From a virus, in IMG/VR virus record IMGVR_UViG_3300032326_000067, positions 1-26,317 of that record: a DNA stretch of 26,317 nt. One strand, given 5' to 3'. The notes under the pieces were generated by a model that ran no database searches, was not told the origin of the DNA, and saw nothing but the letters and a program-made list of their open reading frames with translations. A program made the translations under genes and the position numbers. Positions 3,739 to 14,921 of this stretch are shown here, in pieces (positions within the stretch are counted from its first letter, which is position 1; the number at the start of each line of letters is the position of its first letter).

Positions 3739-4005
3739 TTAGCCCATTTTTCCGCTAGACATTTTGCCTTTAGTGGCTGCACCTGTGCCACGCATCATGA
3801 TCTTACCGTACTTATTGTCTGGTGGATAGTTGCCTTTGCTGATACCAGCAACAGACATGTTCATCTTATCCATGCACTCAGCGCCAGTTTCCTGGTTGCT
3901 GTATGTTTTGACGTTAGTAGGCTTGCCCTTCATGGTATGTGGTTGAGCATACACTTCGGCTGGACCAACTTCTTTGCCGCCTTTTTTCATAGAAAACTTA
4001 GCCAT
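3739..4005 (-). CDS. Small basic protein with an RGTGAATKG motif
   Basis: This 88-residue protein is rich in Lys, Gly and Met. It starts MAKFSMKKGGKEVGPAEVY and ends with KIMMRGTGAATKGKMSSGKMG. The RGTGAATKG string near the C-terminus is one I recognise from small uncharacterised proteins of aquatic phages. It has no membrane segment or signal peptide. A KKGG element near the start is shared with several neighbours (the 6917-7378, 6072-6617 and 5795-6070 genes carry KKGG or EGGK). The gene sits 2 bases after the preceding gene, so it is probably co-translated with virion proteins. Function unknown; a nucleic-acid or capsid-associated role would fit the charge. Confidence 0.7.
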   Translation of the reverse strand: MAKFSMKKGGKEVGPAEVYAQPHTMKGKPTNVKTYSNQETGAECMDKMNMSVAGISKGNYPPDNKYGKIMMRGTGAATKGKMSSGKMG

Positions 4006-4007
4006 GA

Positions 4008-4196
4008 TTAACCTCTCTTTTGAGCAGCAATCTTTGCAAGACCGCGACCCATTTTCTTCATATCAGCATTAGTCTTACCGCCAGAGCCTTTAACACCCTT
4101 TTGGATAGCTACTGTAGGACCTGAATCACCCAAGTTTTTACCTTCGGTTTTGCCTTTTTTAGTGATACCGTCTGCGCCTTTTTTGTACATTTTCAA
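4008..4196 (-). CDS. Very small basic protein with an ADGxxxKGKTxGK motif
   Basis: This 62-residue protein is Lys/Gly-rich. Residues 8-20 read ADGITKKGKTEGK, the same motif found at the C-termini of four genes between 6072 and 7873, here at the N-terminus and with Ile in place of Cys. The rest is low-complexity basic sequence (MKKMGRGLAKIAAQKRG at the end). It is flanked by gaps of 2-3 bases, in a polycistronic run. I do not know its function. The shared motif suggests a common partner or processing signal, which is inference. Confidence 0.65.
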   Translation of the reverse strand: MKMYKKGADGITKKGKTEGKNLGDSGPTVAIQKGVKGSGGKTNADMKKMGRGLAKIAAQKRG

Positions 4197-4199
4197 CTC

Positions 4200-4625
4200 C
4201 TATGTTGTCGTTACCGTAACTGTACCAACAATTACTTGTTGTACCAAGTCATTTGGTGTTAAACCTGCATCAGGACCTCTACTTCCCCCTACAGGATTCC
4301 ACCCCCATTGAAACACCCTACTACCTAATTCTGGACTACCAAAGCCGTCCGGACCTACACCTGTTATGTTTATCTGCAAGCCACTATTACCTGACTGCAA
4401 ATACGATACGTCCGGTCTAGGCTCACGAACTGCCTGCGGGTCGTCTACTGGGTATAAACCTAATGACAACTGCGGCTGGTCAGGGTCCCAACAACTAGGA
4501 CAAACCTTAATCTTAAACGGGCGTTGCTTTACTATCTGTGTCTTAAGCTCTTTCAGCTTATATCGTTGCGCACAACGATCACATTCAGCAATCGCAAACT
4601 TGCCCGAGGCAAAACGATTAGGCAT
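4200..4625 (-). CDS. Zinc-ribbon phage protein of the virion region
   Basis: This 141-residue protein opens MPNRFASGKFAIAECDRC. Two CxxC pairs at C15/C18 and C42/C45 form a probable zinc ribbon. Next comes a conserved-looking PQLSLGLYPVDDPQAVREPRPD segment, and the tail is Gly/Thr-rich ending VTVTTT. I have seen this architecture in many phage late operons next to connector genes, without a defined function. It overlaps the end of the P22 gp4-like gene by 8 bases, implying coupled translation. A role in head completion or DNA retention is possible but not shown. Confidence 0.7.
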   Translation of the reverse strand: MPNRFASGKFAIAECDRCAQRYKLKELKTQIVKQRPFKIKVCPSCWDPDQPQLSLGLYPVDDPQAVREPRPDVSYLQSGNSGLQINITGVGPDGFGSPELGSRVFQWGWNPVGGSRGPDAGLTPNDLVQQVIVGTVTVTTT

Positions 4626-5547
4626 AGAACAAAGTCCTTGGCACGAATCTTACTGGTGCTTTATCACGGTCTTCATCCGCTGCTAACTGGAACTGCTGCT
4701 CATAATCGGCTTTAAGCATCGGAATTCGGTTAGGGTCAACTCCAGGAATCTTCTGAGATAGATAGAAAGCCAAACCTGCAACCATGCAAGGTATAAAGCG
4801 GAATGGGATATCTTGTTCACGAATACCACCACCTGCATCCTGAATACGGCGCATTCTGTAGTAAACGAACGTATATTGGTTTCCAGGAGCGTTAGGGGTG
4901 GGCCATACGTTTACGCAGGGTAGGTTCTGGATAGTCACGCCAGCGCCCGTTAAATGAGCCGTAGCGGTAGTTCCTGCCTGTCCACGATAGCAGTTTGTAA
5001 GCTGGTTTCCTACGATGTTCGCATAACCAATAGTTTCGGCACCAATCTTAACGAAGCCTGCCGTTGGCAATCCAAGGATAGAACTCACTGTGATAGTTGT
5101 ATCGTCCGCATCAATACCACCATTTAATGTGGTTGTGGCACTAACGTTTGTCATGCCTGACTGTCTATTGATCCAAACCTGAATAGGGCGTCCCTGTGTT
5201 AACTTGTTAGGGATTGACATGTAAGTTGGTTCAGCAATACGGCTGATATTGATATCGATCTGGTTTGCATAGTTGCCGTTATATTGACGGATAACTTGGT
5301 CTAGCAAGTCAATCGTATCTACTGGAAGAGGGTAAATAGCCTGACCAGTAACCATAGGAATCTGCCCCTGTTCTACTGTCCAGAGGTTGATACCACGATT
5401 AGCCCACTCAATAGTGAGCAAATTTAGACTGCGTCGTGCAGTTCTAAAGTCATATCCTGACCGCAACTCCATGCCACAACGCTCAAACGCCTCTTCAATG
5501 AGGTCATTCATGTCTAGGTTAAATGCGGTAGTTCCAGTAGTAGTCAT
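4618..5547 (-). CDS. P22 gp4-like head-tail adaptor/tail accessory protein with inserted domain
   Basis: The protein has 309 residues. The N-terminal part (LIEEAFERCGMELRSGYDFRTARRSLN, read in pieces) and the C-terminal helical part (QDIPFRFIPCMVAGLAFYLSQKIP) match the pattern of podovirus head-tail adaptors that bind under the portal. Residues about 136-206 look like an inserted beta domain (DDTTITVSSILGLPTAGFVKIG, ETIGYANI, CYRGQAGTTATAH in order) of a type often found in virion proteins. The insertion separates two halves of the expected fold. The gene overlaps its upstream neighbour by 4 bases (ATGA) and the zinc-ribbon gene by 8. Connector assignment is likely; its exact equivalence to gp4 is inference. 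Confidence 0.7.
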   Translation of the reverse strand: MTTTGTTAFNLDMNDLIEEAFERCGMELRSGYDFRTARRSLNLLTIEWANRGINLWTVEQGQIPMVTGQAIYPLPVDTIDLLDQVIRQYNGNYANQIDINISRIAEPTYMSIPNKLTQGRPIQVWINRQSGMTNVSATTTLNGGIDADDTTITVSSILGLPTAGFVKIGAETIGYANIVGNQLTNCYRGQAGTTATAHLTGAGVTIQNLPCVNVWPTPNAPGNQYTFVYYRMRRIQDAGGGIREQDIPFRFIPCMVAGLAFYLSQKIPGVDPNRIPMLKADYEQQFQLAADEDRDKAPVRFVPRTLFYA

Positions 5548-5795
5548 TTGACTCTCCTATAAGGCGCTACTTTAGCCTTTATTTTCTTAGGCTGGGCTAC
5601 AAATTGTTTGCCCGCCGCTTTGCCAGCACGTTTAGCTTTCGTCGTTGCTGCGTATTCTTGTGGGCTTAAAGCCTTGATTGCTTTCTCAGGCAAGTATCTC
5701 TCACCTGTTTCAGAAGACTTTTTGCCAGACTTGGTAGTCCATTTCTGGTCTCCCCAAGCTTTTAGCGAACGTTGGCTCTTGGCTAATGCGCTCAT
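5544..5795 (-). CDS. Small basic conserved phage protein (RYLP.../KQFVAQPKKI type)
   Basis: This 83-residue, strongly basic protein has the order KSQRSLKAWGDQKW, TKSGKKSSETGERYLPEKA, ALSPQEYAATTKAKRAG and GKQFVAQPKKI. I recognise this as a widespread small uncharacterised family in phages and some bacteria (I believe DUF5872). The start codon overlaps the previous gene's stop (TAATG), and the gene's own end overlaps the adaptor by ATGA. No catalytic motif is seen. Presence in the virion is unproven. Confidence 0.7.
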   Translation of the reverse strand: MSALAKSQRSLKAWGDQKWTTKSGKKSSETGERYLPEKAIKALSPQEYAATTKAKRAGKAAGKQFVAQPKKIKAKVAPYRRVK

Positions 5796-6070
5796 TACTT
5801 ATATCCACCACCAGCGGCTTTGTATTTCTTGGCTACTAACTGTGCTTTACGGGCTGACCATTGACCTGCAGCAGTACCGTGTGTTGCAGCAGCTTTAACT
5901 TGAGAAACAATGCGTTTACGCAGACTGGGCTTGGTATAGTTACCAGCGGCGTTTACCTTGCCACCTTCTTTATACATATCAACTTGGTCAGGATTATCCT
6001 TACGGGTAATAACTTTACCTTTAGGCATCTTGCTTGGGTTGATCGCACCCATACCACGGCTGGCTCTCAT
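5795..6070 (-). CDS. Small basic protein with EGGK and QWSARKAQL motifs
   Basis: An open frame extends back to 6280, but the likely start is the ATG at 6070, one base after the TAA of the upstream gene (TAATATG). The upstream extension is Gln/Leu-rich shadow sequence from the overlapping gene. The 91-residue product contains NPSKMPKGKVITRKDNPDQVD, MYKEGGKVNAAGNYTKP, and a C-terminal QWSARKAQLVAKKYKAAGGG. The last segment is familiar from conserved hypothetical proteins of phage late operons. The protein is basic with no membrane segment. Function unknown. The EGGK element links it to neighbouring small genes. Confidence 0.7.
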   Translation of the reverse strand: MRASRGMGAINPSKMPKGKVITRKDNPDQVDMYKEGGKVNAAGNYTKPSLRKRIVSQVKAAATHGTAAGQWSARKAQLVAKKYKAAGGGYK

Positions 6071-6071
6071 A

Positions 6072-6617
6072 TTAGGCTCTAGTCTTTCCACGGATTGCGC
6101 ATCCGTCTGCACGTTTAGAAGCTGAAGAAACTTTACCACCTGACTTAAATTCTGAAGAACCCATTTTTTTGGCTGCAGCCATTGCCCCACCTGCTGGACC
6201 TGAAGTTGCTGTACCAAGTAATACGTCTCTAACCCCTTCATTAAAGGATTTAGCACGTTTATTTTCTTTAATAGTTTCACTAGGTAAAGGTTTACGAGCG
6301 CTACCTAAACCACTAGCCGAAGCCCCTTTAACAAATGGGTTCATGTCGTCTTCAGCTTTACCGCCTTCTGCATATTTTTTCACTTTGCCGCCCTTTTTAT
6401 AGCCAGCAAGGTCATATGCCTCACCCTCACGGGCACGGGCAGGGACAGACTCACGTAGTGAGCGAGCCATTCTCATATCATCACGGGCAGCCTTAGCAGC
6501 CGTTGTAGAAAGTTTGGAAAGGAAGTCTTTCTCGCCTTCAATACCTTGGACCATTAGGTCACGAGATTTATCAAGCTTTTCGCTTTCTTTCGCTGTAGGT
6601 TTACGATAATCAGGCAT
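6072..6617 (-). CDS. Small basic protein with C-terminal ADGCxxRGKT motif
   Basis: The product has 181 residues. The N-terminal half is charged and helical (MPDYRKPTAKESEKLDKSRD onward), followed by GYKKGGKVKKYAEGGK and later a small Ala/Gly-rich segment around residues 135-150. The C-terminus, residues 170-181, is ADGCAIRGKTRA, preceded by a KSGGK. Three adjacent upstream genes encode the same C-terminal motif. Its start ATG overlaps the stop of the previous gene by one base. Function unknown. The C-terminal position of the motif suggests a sorting or binding tag (inference). Confidence 0.7.
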   Translation of the reverse strand: MPDYRKPTAKESEKLDKSRDLMVQGIEGEKDFLSKLSTTAAKAARDDMRMARSLRESVPARAREGEAYDLAGYKKGGKVKKYAEGGKAEDDMNPFVKGASASGLGSARKPLPSETIKENKRAKSFNEGVRDVLLGTATSGPAGGAMAAAKKMGSSEFKSGGKVSSASKRADGCAIRGKTRA

Positions 6618-6916
6618 TACACAATCCTTCCTTTAGTTTTCCCTCTAACAGCACAACCATCTCCACGAGATGACGCTGTCCCACCTTTTGCGAACTTTAA
6701 CGGTTCATGCTTTGAAGACTTCGGCATACCGCCGCCACCGCCACCACGATTTACAGGTTCACCAAGACGCTTGTATGTATTCTCGTCAATACGACGGGCA
6801 CGAGCCTCTTCAGCAATCCGACCTACTTCCGCCTTAGCATTGTCATTACGCATCTTGCGTAGGACTCGCTGGGCTTCCTTTTCAGTCTGTAGTGGATCAG
6901 CAGTGTATTCGTCCAT
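6617..6916 (-). CDS. Small protein with C-terminal GDGCAVRGKTKG motif
   Basis: The 99-residue product has a helical, highly charged N-terminal segment (residues 1-52, Glu/Lys/Arg-rich), then a six-glycine linker (NRGGGGGGMPKSSK), then KFAKGGTASSRG and the C-terminal motif GDGCAVRGKTKGRIV (residues 85-99). This looks like a two-part protein: a helical module tethered to the shared tail motif. The start is immediately adjacent to the stop of the upstream gene. Function unknown. Confidence 0.7.
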   Translation of the reverse strand: MDEYTADPLQTEKEAQRVLRKMRNDNAKAEVGRIAEEARARRIDENTYKRLGEPVNRGGGGGGMPKSSKHEPLKFAKGGTASSRGDGCAVRGKTKGRIV

Positions 6917-7378
6917 TTAGCACATGCCGCCTTTTTTCATAGCAACCATCTTGCCTTTTGTATGACCTTTAGTAACACAGCCATCAGCACGGGTTACACC
7001 ACCCTTAGCCATTTTTCTAGCAGGTCCACAAGTCATGCCGCCTTTTTTCATGCCGTGCATTGATTTCTCATGTGCTTTAACTTCTTCTTTAGCAACCTTC
7101 TTCATCATTGGCTTGTCTTTAGCCATATCTGAATGCGCCATGCCGCCTTTTTTCATGTATCCCATTTTGTTCCTCACTTCGGTTGGTAGTTTAGCCAAGC
7201 CTGGATTACTCTCAGCATCAGTTTCTTTAAGGGCGCCGCCCTCTCTAAATTTACGACCTTTGTCTGCTTTCATGAACTCTTCCCCTACAGATTTAGGTAC
7301 GCCAACTTTCTTGGCGAACTTAGGGTTGTTAGCCACAGCAGCCATAAACCCATGTTGTTTTTTACTAGTACTAGGCAT
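6917..7378 (-). CDS. DUF3008-like small basic protein with MKKGGM repeats and the ADGC motif
   Basis: The product has 153 residues. The N-terminus (MPSTSKKQHGFMAAVANNPK, then FAKKVGVPKSVGEEFMKADKG) resembles DUF3008-type small proteins common in phages. The second half is Met/Lys/Gly-rich with three MKKGGM copies (about residues 74, 109 and 147), and ADGCVTKGHTKGKMV at 131-145. Unusually for this group, six residues plus a terminal Cys follow the motif. It overlaps the holin-like gene by 8 bases. The repeated MKKGGM and the Cys residues could mediate binding or cross-linking in the virion, but this is speculation. Confidence 0.7.
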   Translation of the reverse strand: MPSTSKKQHGFMAAVANNPKFAKKVGVPKSVGEEFMKADKGRKFREGGALKETDAESNPGLAKLPTEVRNKMGYMKKGGMAHSDMAKDKPMMKKVAKEEVKAHEKSMHGMKKGGMTCGPARKMAKGGVTRADGCVTKGHTKGKMVAMKKGGMC

Positions 7379-7556
7379 CTTTCTTCTTCCCCAATAGCTT
7401 CTGTATTGTGTCGGTTTCGTAGATGCGAATACCTGTCCATATGATAGTAAATAAAGCCGCTACGGCAGGTAATACATCCACAAGTGCCCCCAACACGGTT
7501 ATCACAGATAAGCCATCTAAAATATGCTTTGTACCATCGTTTAGATGATCTTTCAT
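7371..7556 (-). CDS. Holin-like small membrane protein
   Basis: This 61-residue protein has a hydrophobic stretch from about residue 16 to 47 (SVITVLGALVDVLPAVAALF then TIIWTGIRIY) that could form one or two membrane helices, and a basic C-terminus (KLLGKKKDA). Size, topology and late-operon position fit a holin, which would open the inner membrane for lysis. No endolysin gene is visible in this window, so the assignment is tentative. It overlaps the upstream gene by ATGA and the downstream gene by 8 bases, so all three are probably translated as a coupled set. Confidence 0.5.
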   Translation of the reverse strand: MKDHLNDGTKHILDGLSVITVLGALVDVLPAVAALFTIIWTGIRIYETDTIQKLLGKKKDA

Positions 7557-7873
7557 ACCATCTTCCCTTTGGTCTTACCACGTACTTCACAGCCACCACC
7601 ACGAACAGCCCCACCTTCTTTGCAGTTCCAAGCACGTAATGACTTGTTAATGCGTGAGTTAGGGTCGTTAGCAGTCTTAGCGGAAGTGAGTTTCTTTTTC
7701 ATGCCTTTCATACGGGCACAGAAAGAATCCCGACGTGGACCGCCCTCTGGTTGAGGCGCCTTTAGCCCTGGTTTCCCAGGGTTAGCAGCGTTATAAGAGG
7801 CACGCCCCTTAGCGTTTAGACCGCCTTCGGGGTTTTTGCCTTCCTTACGAGTCCAAGCAGGGGACTTAGCCAT
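7553..7873 (-). CDS. Conserved small phage protein (DUF6321-like) with C-terminal GCxxRGKTKGK motif
   Basis: This 106-residue basic protein starts MAKSPAWTRKEGKNPEGGLN and continues AKGRASYNAANPGKPGLKAP, then RRDSFCARMKGMKKKLTSAK. I recognise this core as a well-conserved phage family (I believe DUF6321). After the conserved core ends near WNC, this copy has an extra tail EGGAVRGGGCEVRGKTKGKMV, read as EGGA then GGGCEVRGKTKGKMV, carrying the motif shared with its neighbours. That suggests the tail was added to an older domain. It overlaps the upstream gene by 8 bases. Function unknown. Confidence 0.75.
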   Translation of the reverse strand: MAKSPAWTRKEGKNPEGGLNAKGRASYNAANPGKPGLKAPQPEGGPRRDSFCARMKGMKKKLTSAKTANDPNSRINKSLRAWNCKEGGAVRGGGCEVRGKTKGKMV

Positions 7874-8150
7874 AAATCACCGTTACTGCGGCTACGTTAG
7901 TCAAATTAGCATATAAATTAGTGCTAAATCGAATGCCTTCACCAGGAATCAGCATATATGTTGGTGCAGTTGCATTAGCGATGGACTGAAGTGTAAGCTT
8001 TACACCCCCACTAGCCCCACCGTCTCTAAATGTAACAGAGCCAGCATTAGCCGTACCAGTAAAATAGACGGCTTTTAGGCGTGCTGGTCCTGCAACAAAC
8101 GTTGCACTTGCAGTATTAGATGCCGAACTTACGTCATATTGCATGCCCAT
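7866..8150 (-). CDS. Small beta-rich virion-region protein
   Basis: This 94-residue protein has short alternating hydrophobic segments typical of a beta sandwich (ARLKAVYFTG, GSVTFRDGG, GVKLTLQSI, TYMLIPGEGIRFSTNLYANL, VAAVTVIYG). There is no Cys and little charge. I recall similar proteins in phage structural clusters, annotated as hypothetical. The position right after the other beta-rich gene and before the small-protein run suggests a head or neck accessory protein. Function not known. Confidence 0.65.
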   Translation of the reverse strand: MGMQYDVSSASNTASATFVAGPARLKAVYFTGTANAGSVTFRDGGASGGVKLTLQSIANATAPTYMLIPGEGIRFSTNLYANLTNVAAVTVIYG

Positions 8151-8837: not shown

Positions 8838-9743
8838 TTAGGCACCTGAAGAACCGAACATACCCAATGGATCTGAGAATCCAAATGAGTAACGCTCACG
8901 AGCCTTGTAACGTACGTTACCAGTATCGAAGTCGCCGTCCATTGAGTTCTGCAATGGAGTACGGATGAAGTGCTTCATGCCGTTAGGTACATCAGTTGTC
9001 AAGAACCAAGCATTGGTGTCAGTCAAATAGTGGTTAATTGTGTAACCTTCTGGGATTGAACCGTTGTTCTTGATTGCGTTGATGTCGTTGTCAGTTGTAC
9101 CAACACGAAGTTCAGTTTCCAACAAACGAGTTGCAACGAATTGCAATGATGGTGGAACGATCAACTTCTTAGGTCTAGCAGCGATCAACAAGCCACGCTC
9201 GTCAGTCCACAAAGAGATTTGAATAACGGCGGCTTCCAAAGAAGTCTCGTTCAAGTCAGCTTGTGTAGCTGGAGTGTTGCTGTTAGTGCCACCAGAAACT
9301 AGTGGGTGAGCTGTAGAGAACAAAGGTTGACCGTCACCACCAACAGAGGTAGTAAAGCCGTTGTTCAACACAGAAGCTGCACGTACTTGCTTTGTGTAAG
9401 CCATTGAACGAGCCAATGCCTTAGTGTAGCGAGCTGACAATGAGTCATACAAGTTATCTTCAATAGCTTCTTCAGTTAAGCTGAAGCCTTGAGCGATTGT
9501 AACGTGTGTGTAGCGAGCTGTGAAAGCTTCTTGTGCATTGTCATAAGCGATGGCAGAGCCTTCGTTCTTAACAGGAGCAGCAGAGAAACCAGACAACTTT
9601 GTCTCTTCTTCGAATGAACGCTCAGAGGTCTCTGTATCGTAGATCTCTTTGTGTTCTTCACCATAACGAGCATACTCAAGTCCGAACAATGCGTTCAAAC
9701 CAGGTAGGAGCTCTTTTAATAACTGTGCGCGTGAAATAGCCAT
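8838..9743 (-). CDS. Major capsid protein (Mu gpT-like, HK97 fold expected)
   Basis: This 301-residue protein forms the icosahedral shell. Matching features are the opening MAISRAQLLKELLPGLNALF, a Glu-rich N-arm-like segment (ERSFEEETKLSGF), the middle segment RPKKLIVPPSLQFVATRLLE (about residues 191-210), then NDINAIKNNG, TINHYLTDTNAWFL and GNVRYKARERYSFGFSDP near the end. These follow the order of the Mu gpT-like major head subunit family. It lies downstream of a scaffold-like gene, and a strong terminator follows. No N-terminal prohead protease cleavage motif is evident. The start ATG has AAGGAGCAC upstream. Confidence 0.85.
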   Translation of the reverse strand: MAISRAQLLKELLPGLNALFGLEYARYGEEHKEIYDTETSERSFEEETKLSGFSAAPVKNEGSAIAYDNAQEAFTARYTHVTIAQGFSLTEEAIEDNLYDSLSARYTKALARSMAYTKQVRAASVLNNGFTTSVGGDGQPLFSTAHPLVSGGTNSNTPATQADLNETSLEAAVIQISLWTDERGLLIAARPKKLIVPPSLQFVATRLLETELRVGTTDNDINAIKNNGSIPEGYTINHYLTDTNAWFLTTDVPNGMKHFIRTPLQNSMDGDFDTGNVRYKARERYSFGFSDPLGMFGSSGA

Positions 9744-10406: not shown

Positions 10407-10853
10407 TTAACCTTTACCAAAGGTATTCGTCGTCTTTCTCTCATTAAAGAGAGGCATACGAGGATCGCTCTGGCGCATAAGAGTGTTGTCTACAGCTTCC
10501 ATTTGAGCATCTGCTTGGTCAGTGTAATATTTATTACGCTGCTGAACAAACTCATCTGGAGTTTTGCATAACAACAAACCGCCAATCTCAATGTTGTCTT
10601 TATAACGACTATTGGGATCAACTAACAGTTGGAATTTTGGTTGTTCTTCAATTCGAACAGGCTCCCAGCCTTCTCTCAGCTTGGCTGAAAGATTCCTTGG
10701 GTCCGCACTATTCAAAGTTGAAACACGAATCCATCGATATGAGTAACCAGCCTGTTTGTCAGGCTCAGGGAGAAGCTCCGCCGGCGCCCACTGCTTAGGA
10801 CGTTCTGCGAATTCACGATTATCTGCACTACGATCAAGTCTATTTGTAGCCAT
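10407..10853 (-). CDS. Conserved phage protein between scaffold and head genes
   Basis: This 148-residue charged protein includes YSYRWIRVSTLNSADPRNLS, REGWEPVR and IEIGGLLLCKTPDEFVQQRN. The pattern is familiar from late operons of uncultured phages. It starts one base after the scaffold-like gene's stop, and the two are probably coupled. There is no membrane segment and no catalytic motif. It may help in capsid assembly, as its position suggests, but I do not recognise a function. Confidence 0.65.
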   Translation of the reverse strand: MATNRLDRSADNREFAERPKQWAPAELLPEPDKQAGYSYRWIRVSTLNSADPRNLSAKLREGWEPVRIEEQPKFQLLVDPNSRYKDNIEIGGLLLCKTPDEFVQQRNKYYTDQADAQMEAVDNTLMRQSDPRMPLFNERKTTNTFGKG

Positions 10854-11858: not shown

Positions 11859-12269
11859 TTAAATAAACTTACGTTTGATGCCACGTGGATCTTCTACTAC
11901 AGCTTCCACAGAGTCATCGTTGATGATTCGGAACTCACGGTCGTGAATTACCAAACGGGTTCCAGCATTGGGTCGTACTAGGACAAAATCGCCTTTCTTA
12001 CACCAAGGTCCGTTAGGGAAACGTACGTTATCCGCATAACAGTCTGGTCCTAAAGCTACTACAAAGAGCACTGTTGTTAACAGTTCATCATGCCGACGTG
12101 TTTCGTCAGACTTGATGATGCCACTTTCAAATGCTTCCTCTGATTCAGGGATTGCACATAAAATCCTATAGCCTTGCGGCTTAGGCAACTGCGACGCCTT
12201 TTCAAGCGTTTCTTTGTTTAAAACTGCGGATAAGTCTACCGCTCGTCCTAAATCAAGTTTCTCATTCAT
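11859..12269 (-). CDS. GroES-like co-chaperonin
   Basis: The protein has 136 residues, longer than the roughly 95 of bacterial GroES. From residue 30 the sequence follows the Cpn10 order: PQGYRILCAIPE (first strand), SGIIKSDETRRHDELLT (mobile-loop position), TVLFVVALGPDCY (strand before the roof loop), WCKKGDFVLVRPNAGTRLVI, then EFRIINDDSVEAVVED (last strands). It would cap the host GroEL to fold a phage protein, probably capsid or scaffold, as T4 gp31 does. It lies between portal and scaffold genes and overlaps the upstream small gene by 8 bases. Residues 1-29 are an extra N-terminal extension. No GroEL gene is in the window. Confidence 0.75.
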   Translation of the reverse strand: MNEKLDLGRAVDLSAVLNKETLEKASQLPKPQGYRILCAIPESEEAFESGIIKSDETRRHDELLTTVLFVVALGPDCYADNVRFPNGPWCKKGDFVLVRPNAGTRLVIHDREFRIINDDSVEAVVEDPRGIKRKFI

Positions 12270-12453
12270 CGTCCGAATGCTCCATTTTACGTTTAAGGTC
12301 TAGTGCTTCTTGCCTTGCAGAGAGAAGACCTTTTATCTCCCCACAAATCTTTTGGTATTCTGAGTAGTCTTGAGCTTGTCCACTTGCTACCCAGTCCCGT
12401 TTAGCCGTTACATCTTTCTCTAGTATGTCCACTAGAGCATCGATTGCATCCAT
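12262..12453 (-). CDS. Small coiled-coil protein next to the portal gene
   Basis: This 63-residue protein is mostly charged helix (MDAIDALVDILEKDVTAKRD at the start, LKRKMEHSDDE at the end). Its start overlaps the portal stop codon by one base (TAATG), and its end overlaps the co-chaperonin start by 8. Tiny helical proteins directly after portal genes recur in similar phages. They may serve head assembly, but I cannot assign a function. Confidence 0.65.
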   Translation of the reverse strand: MDAIDALVDILEKDVTAKRDWVASGQAQDYSEYQKICGEIKGLLSARQEALDLKRKMEHSDDE

Positions 12454-14921
12454 TAGTCACCTTTCTTTGTCTTGTAAGTGTCTTTCAGCATATCAACTCC
12501 AGCGTCTAGGAGTGCCTTTTCCTTCGCATCACGCATATTTGCTGCGGCTTTTAGGGCTTCAAACTTCTGCTTGTCGCCAGCAGTCTTAGCATTTAGGGCA
12601 ATCTTCTGTGCATCAAGGGCAAGTTTCTGCTTGTCAAGCTCAACATCTGCCATATCTTTAGCGGCTTTGCGTTGCTGCTCTGCCTGCTTGATAGCAACTT
12701 CTTGCTGCTGCAACTGTAAGAGTGGGTCTTGAGCCTGCTGAAGTGCCTGTTGCTGAGCTGCCTGCTGCTGGTTCTGCATGAGAACTGCTTGTGCTGCGTC
12801 TGCAAGTAACGGTGCCAACATAGCTTCGACTTGTGGGTCCATATTGATATCGTCGCCAGACTCGTCTTTCTGTGGGGGCAATGACATACCAAGCTTCTGC
12901 TCGATCTGGATACGGTACTGGAAGCCCAAGTGCTCGTTGATGTGAGCCTGCATAGCCTGCTGCATTGCTGGTGCCATCGGATTGTTCTGCAACAACTGCA
13001 TAATCTTCGGGTCCTGCATAGCAGACATGTGCACCTTGATGTGTGCTTCGTGGTCTTGGTACTGGAACGCCTTGACAGGCTTCATCATGAGAACGTTCTG
13101 GTTCTCTGACACTGGGTCTGTCGGCTTCTGGTCCTCGTCCATCGGGACAAGTTTCTGTGCGTTCTTAATACCTAGTACGTCTAGCATCTGACGATATAGG
13201 AGTGGCATGTTAAATAGCGTTGGTGACGCTTGTGCCAACTGCATTACTGCTTGGTACTGAACAATCTTCTGTGCCATCGTTGAAGCGTTAGGATCACTAA
13301 CAGGGATGACGTCCACGTTATCGTAGTCAGATTTCTTAGCCATTCTTGAACCTTCGTCTGGTTCATAGCTGTACTCTTCTGGTGTGTACTCAGCAATAAT
13401 CTTCTTCAAGAGTTTTAACTCTTGCTTCAAACTGTAGTGAATACGTGCTTGAACCGCACTCATCACCTTCAGCGTACGCTCTAGAATCGCCAATGTAGTA
13501 CCCACTGGAGCGTTAGCGCTCATATCACTGATCTGTAAATCAGCAGTATTGGCAAAGCGACGACCTTCTTCGATGATGCCGTTTAACAATGTCATCAATG
13601 TCTGGCTCGGCTCCTTGTATGGGAGCGTCATGATGTTATCTTTCATCGTACCGCTAGGCACGTCTACATCACGGAACTCTCCTGGGCTAATCGGTGTATC
13701 GTCACCCTTAACACGCAAACCACGTGTCTTAAAGCCACCTGGCAAGTTAGATAGCGTACCTGCATCAACTAACTGACGGAGGATTGACGTACCTGACTTA
13801 GCATATGCGCCAATCAAGTGGATGAGACCAAAGTAATAGAAGCCAAAGCCTGGGATGTAACCGTAGTGCACAAAGTGCTGACGCTTCTGTTTAGTCTCGT
13901 CGTTCGGGTCCCAGTTTCTGCGAATAGACAGAATGTTGTTAGTGCCCTTCTCTATTGTTACCACGTATGGCAACGCAATACCTGTCGGCTCACCGTCTTC
14001 ATCCTTGTCTTCGTAACCTGGCAAGTCCAAGTTCACGTGCATCTCAAGAATCTTATAGCGGTCGTCTGTGCTTGCTTTGAAGCCTAGCTTCTCTGCAATC
14101 TTTTTCTCAACTTCATCAAGTGCGTTGTTCGGCTCACCTAAGTCAATGTCGCGATAGAAGCCTGCAACTTGTAGCTTGCGCAACTCGTTCTCGGTCTTAC
14201 GCATGACGTGGGTCACACGTGGTGATGACTGCAAATCAGACGCGCCATAAGGAACTACGATGTCCTCTGCAGGAACAAACATAGCCACTTGACGCTCTAA
14301 ACTCGGATCGTAGTACACCTTCTTGAACGCATTACCTGATAAACCAAGACCCCACAACATACGCTCGGTTTCAGGGCGATACTCAGGCATCATTTCGGTT
14401 AACTGATAGTTCATGTCCTCTTGAACACGATCGGCAGCAGCCTTCTTATCTGGTGTGTCTTTACCGATGACCAATGTCTTCACTGGACCAGCGGCAGGGA
14501 ATATTGACATCATTGTTTCTGCTTGGAACTTCACAAGTGCTTCTGATAGAAGTGGGTGATACACACCGCATGCGCCTTCCCATGGTTCTGTGCGCTCTTC
14601 AATCTTCAAACCTAATAGTTCTAGACCGTCGACGTATGTCTGTATCCAGTCTTTACGTGAACTGATATCGTCATCAAAGTCGCCAGTCAAATCACCAACT
14701 AACTCCGTGAGTTCGCCTTCGCTTATAGACTCGGCAAGGTTGGCGTTGAAGTCATCTTCGTCTTCTTCACCTTCTTCATAGCGCATGATGGTCTCACCAT
14801 CAATGCTAAGCTCAACCGCTTCAGGGTCATCGATCTCTATTTCAATATCTAGAGGCTCTTCTTGCTCTGCAAGTTGCTCAATTCCCATCGGGGCTTGGTA
14901 CAGCGCTTTATCTATTGCCAT
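12453..14921 (-). CDS. Portal protein (P22-like size)
   Basis: The 822-residue product would form the dodecameric vertex through which DNA is packaged. Residues 18-75 are very acidic. From about residue 88 comes SSRKDWIQTYVDGLELLG, then EPWEGACGVYHPLLSEALVK and FQAETMMSIFP, a pattern typical of portals of this group. The middle has PAEDIVVPYGASDL and GFYYFGLIHLIGAYAKSGTS segments. The C-terminal 150 residues are Gln/Ala/Lys-rich helix (QQQAAQQQALQQAQDPLLQL and following), comparable in position to the P22 barrel. It sits directly after the terminase large subunit, 9 bases away, as expected. It is larger than most portals (about 450-750 residues). Confidence 0.85.
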   Translation of the reverse strand: MAIDKALYQAPMGIEQLAEQEEPLDIEIEIDDPEAVELSIDGETIMRYEEGEEDEDDFNANLAESISEGELTELVGDLTGDFDDDISSRKDWIQTYVDGLELLGLKIEERTEPWEGACGVYHPLLSEALVKFQAETMMSIFPAAGPVKTLVIGKDTPDKKAAADRVQEDMNYQLTEMMPEYRPETERMLWGLGLSGNAFKKVYYDPSLERQVAMFVPAEDIVVPYGASDLQSSPRVTHVMRKTENELRKLQVAGFYRDIDLGEPNNALDEVEKKIAEKLGFKASTDDRYKILEMHVNLDLPGYEDKDEDGEPTGIALPYVVTIEKGTNNILSIRRNWDPNDETKQKRQHFVHYGYIPGFGFYYFGLIHLIGAYAKSGTSILRQLVDAGTLSNLPGGFKTRGLRVKGDDTPISPGEFRDVDVPSGTMKDNIMTLPYKEPSQTLMTLLNGIIEEGRRFANTADLQISDMSANAPVGTTLAILERTLKVMSAVQARIHYSLKQELKLLKKIIAEYTPEEYSYEPDEGSRMAKKSDYDNVDVIPVSDPNASTMAQKIVQYQAVMQLAQASPTLFNMPLLYRQMLDVLGIKNAQKLVPMDEDQKPTDPVSENQNVLMMKPVKAFQYQDHEAHIKVHMSAMQDPKIMQLLQNNPMAPAMQQAMQAHINEHLGFQYRIQIEQKLGMSLPPQKDESGDDINMDPQVEAMLAPLLADAAQAVLMQNQQQAAQQQALQQAQDPLLQLQQQEVAIKQAEQQRKAAKDMADVELDKQKLALDAQKIALNAKTAGDKQKFEALKAAANMRDAKEKALLDAGVDMLKDTYKTKKGD

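Follow-up and report, generated by a model that had tools for sequence, protein, structure and literature searches.

The capsid targeting sequence (CTS) of phage T4 is a short terminal peptide common to small basic head proteins, the internal proteins IPI-III, with bodies that show little conservation among related phages. The part of PMC9026906 that we consulted describes T4 internal proteins similarly. The cargo loading peptide of encapsulins is likewise short and lies at the C terminus of proteins whose genes stand next to that of an HK97-fold shell, and according to the portion of PMC7355545 consulted it binds the shell and its named cargo consists of enzymes or iron-storage-type proteins. 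Here we describe a comparable arrangement in a 26,317-base viral record from IMG/VR (IMGVR_UViG_3300032326_000067), the whole of which we call the window and which is probably a piece of a larger virus genome. The minus strand of the window encodes a head module, and five genes there carry copies of a short motif that we call the tag. We document its sequence and position, selection on the peptide, a cysteine rule, a Shine-Dalgarno codon bias, turnover of the protein bodies and restriction to one phage group. The reading that we favor, with middling confidence and partly by analogy, is that the tag is a portable sorting or tethering signal that may load fast-changing, small, basic, probably unfolded capsid-linked proteins as capsid cargo.

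As with the CTS, small basic proteins that otherwise differ and whose genes lie near head genes have a terminal peptide in common, and their bodies are poorly conserved. The likeness is one of the arrangement of peptide and genes. The CTS is N-terminal, whereas the tag is C-terminal and bears a cysteine; only the copy type of the gene at 4008 is N-terminal. In contrast to the encapsulin cargo, the tagged proteins look like unfolded orphans, and there are phages of the same capsid family that lack the tag, which argues against the shell as its sole receptor.

Reading the window sequence bore out all five copies at the genes named in a first-pass annotation of this DNA, all of them on the minus strand, as are all features given below unless stated. 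The first tagged protein (7553-7873) has a DUF6321 domain (PF19846, expect value [E] 1.9e-19, residues 12-82) and an exactly C-terminal tag, GGGCEVRGKTKGKMV (7556-7600; motif GGGCEVRGKT at 7571-7600). The second (6917-7378) joins an N-terminal domain shared with jumbo phages (PHROG 16759, 22033 and 25121) to MKKGGM repeats, the tag ADGCVTKGHTKGKMV (6944-6988; ADGCVTKGHT at 6959-6988) and a short tail ending in cysteine. The third (6617-6916) and fourth (6072-6617) are basic orphans that match no PHROG or Pfam family and have cysteine in the tag only; the third ends exactly in GDGCAVRGKTKGRIV (6620-6664; GDGCAVRGKT at 6635-6664), and the fourth in a shortened copy, ADGCAIRGKTRA (6075-6110; ADGCAIRGKT at 6081-6110). 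The fifth copy, ADGITKKGKTEGK (4137-4175; ADGITKKGKT at 4146-4175), is N-terminal and free of cysteine, and an N-terminal copy also occurs in sampled relatives. The first-pass annotation was right that this gene carries the motif, but in this copy I replaces C and E replaces K, and the likely start is the ATG at 4190 and not the TTG at 4196, giving a gene at 4008-4190. Its account of placement, mostly C-terminal and N-terminal in this gene, also stands except for the 6917 copy, which is not terminal and is followed by eight residues (AMKKGGMC). A six-frame search of the whole window found no sixth copy of the motif. In 300 dinucleotide shuffles of the window the first-pass pattern matched 0 times, and the shorter pattern G[CI]...G[KH]T matched a mean of 0.037 times.

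To follow the motif beyond the window we assembled 278 loci, with the window itself excluded, from eight isolate regions and three scans of viral contigs, two by protein (the best 80 of 598 and the best 80 of 371) and one by DNA pattern (at least 120 stretches). The motif search that had been proposed showed that the tag does recur in other aquatic phages: 219 of the 278 loci held 374 strict copies, some of them duplicates from one contig, which reduce to 302 distinct contexts. Of these copies, 304 of 374 end exactly three residues past GKT[KR]G, and all 374 lie within 20 residues of the stop. Marker genes of the HTVC023P-type group were also present in 216 of the 219 tagged loci; in the remaining three, which span just 1.1 to 3.2 kb, small-protein homologues are all that was seen. 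Among 96 non-redundant capsid-to-adaptor loci, 89 had at least one loose match, most often two or three, and 240 of 262 looser matches lay on the sense strand within the capsid-adaptor interval, which makes up 46% of the length.

Two further surveys bear on how widely the tag occurs. A pattern scan of one genome per species across 84,980 bacterial and archaeal species gave 25 matches, six of them tag-like. Five of the six (L280, L283, L288, L293 and L298) stand on contigs with capsid or adaptor genes of the window's phage type, and the sixth (L295) has tag-like similarity only; the other 19 had neither phage genes nor tag surroundings. Searches of 50,697 phage records with the tag alone or with tagged proteins gave one result that matched only Pag-Yong1, MinM2 and Pra-JY27 (E 8) and two that matched none. 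The Pag-Yong1 match proved real when its sequence was read: UMO75986.1 of this Planktothrix phage, a 308-residue protein encoded by the gene after the capsid gene, ends in RDGCAKRGRTKGRFI. We found no relevant paper for the motif strings in the open-access literature, which is not proof of absence, nor in that literature any paper on Pag-Yong1 or any relevant one on MinM2.

Sampling by capsid protein alone, which avoids choosing on the tag, drew on the best 80 of about 600 candidates for each capsid type. When only loci extending 4 kb or more beyond the capsid gene are counted, the strict tag was present in 15 of 31 window-like, 0 of 24 HTVC027P-like and 2 of 29 Pag-Yong1-like loci, and the loose motif in 27, 0 and 8, respectively. 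Median capsid-adaptor distances were 4.2, 1.5 and 2.8 kb in the same order, and in HTVC027P-like loci the window's small basic genes are missing altogether between capsid and adaptor. Given that these relatives have neither tag nor block, the tag belongs to an added block and not to the capsid type. Judging from the loci sampled, only freshwater relatives of the HTVC023P-type podoviruses carry the tag, which lies mostly between the major capsid and adaptor genes.

The first-pass annotation had also held that codons differ between copies and that selection on the protein, not recent duplication, maintains the motif, and both statements withstood the comparison. Only 5 of 38 four-fold codons for the same residue are identical among the window copies. 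When copies from one locus whose upstream parts differ were paired (163 pairs), shared residues used the same four-fold codon in 287 of 769 cases (0.373), compared to 0.36 expected from local codon usage and 0.368 for between-locus pairs. Silent sites are thus randomized within a genome, implying that the copies are old and that the peptide is kept by selection; as 0 of the 163 pairs have identical core DNA, recent duplication or gene conversion is ruled out. The attachment to different upstream parts was confirmed as well. Upstream parts of the 302 distinct tagged frames fell into 87 single-linkage BLASTP clusters (the largest of 76, 62 and 35), a number that is rough because frames and not curated genes were used. 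One of the 87 cluster representatives matches DUF6321, up to three have weak Pfam matches (E ~0.001-0.002), and the remainder have no match in Pfam or PHROGs. The aligned tags share an invariant Gly and Thr across the 302 copies. Tandem or internal copies such as GGGIESRGKTKG, two per protein with I or V replacing Cys, were seen in L058, L109, L076, L152 and others.

The resemblance of GCAVRGKT to Gx4GK[ST] raises the reading that the tag is a Walker A (P-loop) nucleotide-binding motif. The pattern does fit four of the five window copies, but H stands for K in 24 of the 302 copies, so that GK[ST] is not invariant, and the motif lies at the end of a predicted unfolded tail with no room for the following helix and no folded nucleoside triphosphatase domain. 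We rejected this reading and give it next to no credence.

Terminal copies appear to serve a second purpose at the level of nucleic acid. In the window, the tag of the DUF6321 protein contains a Shine-Dalgarno-like AAAGGGAAG (7562-7570) ahead of the overlapping start codon of the gene at 7371-7556, and that of the third protein contains AAAGGAAGG (6626-6634) ahead of the 6072-6617 ATG, which overlaps the TAA. Throughout the group, the Gly before the last three residues (column 10) is encoded by GGA or GGG in 175 of 234 terminal copies, compared to 43 and 17 of 234 with a purine-ending Gly codon at columns 1 and 6; in copies at least 11 residues from the stop the column-10 count falls to 1 of 53 (p 1e-24). 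An ATG lies within -3 to +20 of the stop in 227 of the 234. By this codon bias, the embedding of the next gene's putative Shine-Dalgarno in terminal copies is a real second function. One could go further and regard the C-terminal end as mainly a nucleic-acid device in which a Shine-Dalgarno and a stop-start overlap couple translation of the next gene. The codon bias and the nearby ATG would follow from such a device, but it would account for the last codons only, while the upstream columns are conserved as protein with their silent sites varying freely, and the peptide persists in copies that are non-terminal, internal or N-terminal, which show neither the codon bias nor the position. We therefore consider it very unlikely, and the conserved non-terminal copies rule out a ribosome binding site as the sole cause. 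The embedded Shine-Dalgarno explains part of the fixed end, not the peptide.

Cysteine is distributed in the tagged proteins by a strict rule. In 559 tagged proteins without DUF6321, the bodies contain 47 Cys in 57,960 residues, compared to 576 in 9,376 for the tag plus tail, where 479 of the 559 have Cys. This set was enriched for Cys by the searches, and the capsid-chosen sample therefore matters: there, 86 proteins in 41 loci have 9 Cys in 9,812 body residues and 80 in 1,507 residues of tag plus tail (70 of 86 proteins), and the Pag-Yong1-like sample has 6 in 2,167 and 20 in 318 (16 of 22 proteins). Among 402 terminal copies, a tail Cys occurs in 6 of 270 with a core Cys and in 56 of 132 without one. 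By these counts the Cys alternates between the core and the last residue, and core and tail Cys exclude each other; 73 of the 402 depart from the rule, having no Cys from the core onward. When the copy is not terminal, Cys is the last residue in 134 of 172; of 60 copies lying over 25 residues from the end, 1 has Cys. Tagged DUF6321 proteins follow suit (35 with a core Cys and no tail Cys, 3 with core Ile and tail Cys, 1 with neither). This pattern points to a thiol that is wanted near the chain end.

Such a thiol would also suit internal DNA-condensing proteins that coat the packaged DNA in the fashion of protamines and cross-link through it, the tag being a DNA- or self-binding element and not an address. 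The tagged proteins are small and Gly/Lys-rich, carry about one thiol each, at the tail, and have an isoelectric point (pI) above 9 in 301 of 302 cases, and in 96% of 269 when the tag is removed, so that the binding of DNA that the first-pass annotation had suggested is possible. By comparison, 14 of 15 packaging, head and tail proteins of the window outside the small-protein block have a pI of 4.3 to 8.4 (the exception is 7866-8150). In addition, 89% of 302 distinct capsid homologues and five of five compared scaffold homologues have no Cys, and with shell and scaffold nearly free of it the tag thiols would mostly meet each other. However, an exact conserved tag with invariant Gly and Thr exceeds what charge or a thiol needs, and relatives with genomes of 57-61 kb manage without it. 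We think DNA condensation unlikely, if still a serious contender. Our search of the disulfide and protamine literature, by title and abstract and open-access only, found no like phage system. A thiol partner on the portal was tried and is not supported. In pooled data, portal residue 118 is C in 67 of 75 tagged versus 11 of 27 untagged loci (p 2e-6), and residue 96 of the protein at 10407-10853 (g10407) is C in 130 of 131 versus 24 of 44; within the Pag-Yong1-like set, where the tag varies, the portal association vanished (8 of the 12 untagged loci have C, as does 1 of the 6 tagged ones), and six phylogenetically independent pairs, too few to reach 0.05, gave no signal. Both cysteines, portal (12453-14921) Cys118 and g10407 Cys96, are clade-linked; the freshwater group conserves them, and the aligned isolates mostly have Ala or Ser there.

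The bodies that carry the tag change quickly. We compared 155 tagged bodies from 88 genomes, with DUF6321 and MPSxSK-family bodies excluded. A body had a homologue among the partner's tagged proteins in 18 of 23 cases at ≥99% capsid identity, 30 of 79 at 96-99%, 50 of 561 at 90-93% and 228 of 5,918 at 84-87%, in strong apparent contrast with the near-invariant tag. These numbers bear on the alternative that the motif joins minor neck or head-vertex parts in virion tethering or assembly, with no cargo involved. The location of the genes between capsid and adaptor, the two or three copies commonly found per genome and the tandem copies in some proteins agree with it. Structural neck parts should be conserved, though, and here the bodies turn over very fast; moreover, the whole block is missing from relatives with the same capsid and adaptor. 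We regard this alternative as improbable.

Where bodies can be recognized, the tag behaves as an addition. The Pfam gathering score for DUF6321 was passed by 7553-7873 only (70.5 versus 28.5 bits). Of 197 DUF6321 frames, 40 carry the strict tag and 157 lack it, and the capsid tree (148 labelled rows) implies that the tag state changed at least 10 times. The same domain occurs in proteins of cyanophages and pelagiphages, in T4-like cyanophages between the terminase genes and the neck genes, but most matches in phage records stop at the domain (in 16 of 538 records the match spans 80% or more of the query). By this comparison, the tag is an addition to DUF6321 in the freshwater group. A model of the DUF6321 protein is helical, of moderate confidence (mean predicted local distance difference test [pLDDT] score 64.7), and predicts the tag residues 87-106 to be unfolded (pLDDT <50). 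A fold search with this model, at a pLDDT of only 64.7, found nothing better than E 2.8 in the Protein Data Bank, sequence searches of solved structures with the capsid, adaptor and DUF6321 proteins gave no match, and we found no paper on DUF6321 in the open-access literature. Residues 1-57 of the 6917-7378 protein share 63% identity with PHIKZ165.1 of phiKZ. This domain is found in many jumbo phages, alone in phiKZ, near genes annotated as structural or structural head protein, and elsewhere at the start of virion protein families, including records annotated as virion structural protein in GAP32 and CBB. These contexts give modest support to a virion location.

Taken together, the place in the head operon, the basic bodies, the unfolded tail, the portability, the turnover and the kept terminal peptide are best fitted by a loading or tethering tag. 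Of the three roles suggested by the first-pass annotation (capsid targeting, DNA binding and processing), capsid targeting appears the best by gene position, turnover and analogy. A processing tag found no support: gp21 removes the T4 CTS, whereas PHROGs named no separate prohead protease among the ten head- and tail-module proteins scanned, and the motif usually forms the last 14 residues. The capsid protein has matches among capsid-protease fusion families, and these run through its capsid part. We infer a virion location for the tagged proteins, with loading, a receptor, delivery and a thiol role, along the following lines. The tag, normally the last 14 residues, would most likely bind a part of the assembling head (scaffold, portal or inner shell) and thereby enclose the small basic proteins, which could later enter the host along with the DNA, as T4 internal proteins do by means of the CTS. 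The single Cys of the tag would probably hold the cargo through a thiol cross-link or a metal site. Terminal copies also double as the ribosome binding site of the next gene. In a bolder version, which we consider doubtful, freshwater podoviruses would load a fast-evolving arsenal of small host-directed proteins into their heads by a thiol address tag, a single shared C-terminal peptide whose only Cys locks the cargo covalently under the oxidizing conditions outside and releases it in the reducing cytoplasm of the next host.

Several points weigh against a loading tag. No cargo function supports delivery, given that 86 of the 87 cluster representatives have no confident domain match. The turnover pairs are not independent and the counts generally share ancestry, and failure of BLAST on disordered, low-complexity sequence could be partly behind the fast turnover. 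Cys is lacking from the tag in 80 of the 559 tagged proteins. No receptor for the tag was found, the portal-cysteine candidate having failed in the informative set. Finally, the HTVC027P-like loci are close relatives of the same capsid family without tag or small-protein block; the tag is thus accessory, and the capsid protein need not be its receptor.

If the tag does load cargo, a sequence rule would flag unannotated phage proteins by the dozen as possibly delivered into bacteria, phages would offer a second testable signal for protein delivery besides that of T4, and a small C-terminal handle for filling phage heads would be at hand. A peptide tag that overlaps a ribosome binding site and follows a strict cysteine rule is unusual in itself. 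The cysteine rule, the embedded Shine-Dalgarno, the restriction to one phage group and the related RGxG motifs described next go beyond the first-pass annotation.

Two neighboring genes carry motifs related to the tag. The protein at 3739-4005 has RGTGAATKG at its C terminus (3742-3792), and most sampled relatives with a complete end have RGxG[AC]ATKGx(2)ARGPMA or close to it; against the 50,697 phage records it gave three weak, unrelated-looking matches (E 5). The protein at 5795-6070 (PHROG 17747) has an N-terminal RGMG module (RGMGAI, 6041-6058) on a domain that we take to be of the GQWSARK type (DUF5872-like); in the open-access literature DUF5872 came up in one paper, on an algal virus. 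Of 165 frames with this module in relatives, 0 also carry the C-terminal tag, and two untagged DUF6321 versions carry it instead.

On the minus strand the gene order is terminase, portal, GroES-like, scaffold, capsid, small basic gene block, adaptor and tail genes; the terminase small subunit and scaffold were named from position and the remaining head-module genes from matches to families or isolates. The best isolate matches of the large terminase subunit (TerL), portal and capsid are podoviruses of the HTVC023P type (HTVC023P, HTVC027P, DSL-LC04 and MinM2/Pag-Yong1), a group name taken from the part of PMC10149686 consulted. These phages share the families and order of TerL, portal, GroES, scaffold and capsid with the window, but their marine HTVC027P-like members have neither the tag nor the small basic gene block. 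The upstream border of the tagged block is the gpT-like major capsid protein (8838-9743; phrog_371), 63-72% identical to those of HTVC023P, HTVC027P, DSL-LC04 and Pag-Yong1. The downstream border is an adaptor homologue (4618-5547) that aligns with annotated adaptor genes of Pag-Yong1, DSL-LC04 and CRP-902; at about residues 130-209 it has an insert matching tail-fibre and baseplate PHROGs that is missing from five aligned isolate adaptors. The GroES-like co-chaperonin gene (11859-12269) lies within the head module, and seven of eight isolate regions have a GroES gene, annotated or recognizable by alignment, in the corresponding position. The protein at 4200-4625 has four Cys (positions 15, 18, 42 and 45), kept in 150 of 150 distinct relatives compared; the spacing is presumably zinc-ribbon-like, and the HTVC027P homologue reads SDRSG at the first pair, where the Cys seem lost. 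On the plus strand, a putative ATPase with a Walker A motif (21932-23047) adjoins a partner (23080-24279) that, from its sequence, gives the impression of a VWA-type protein.

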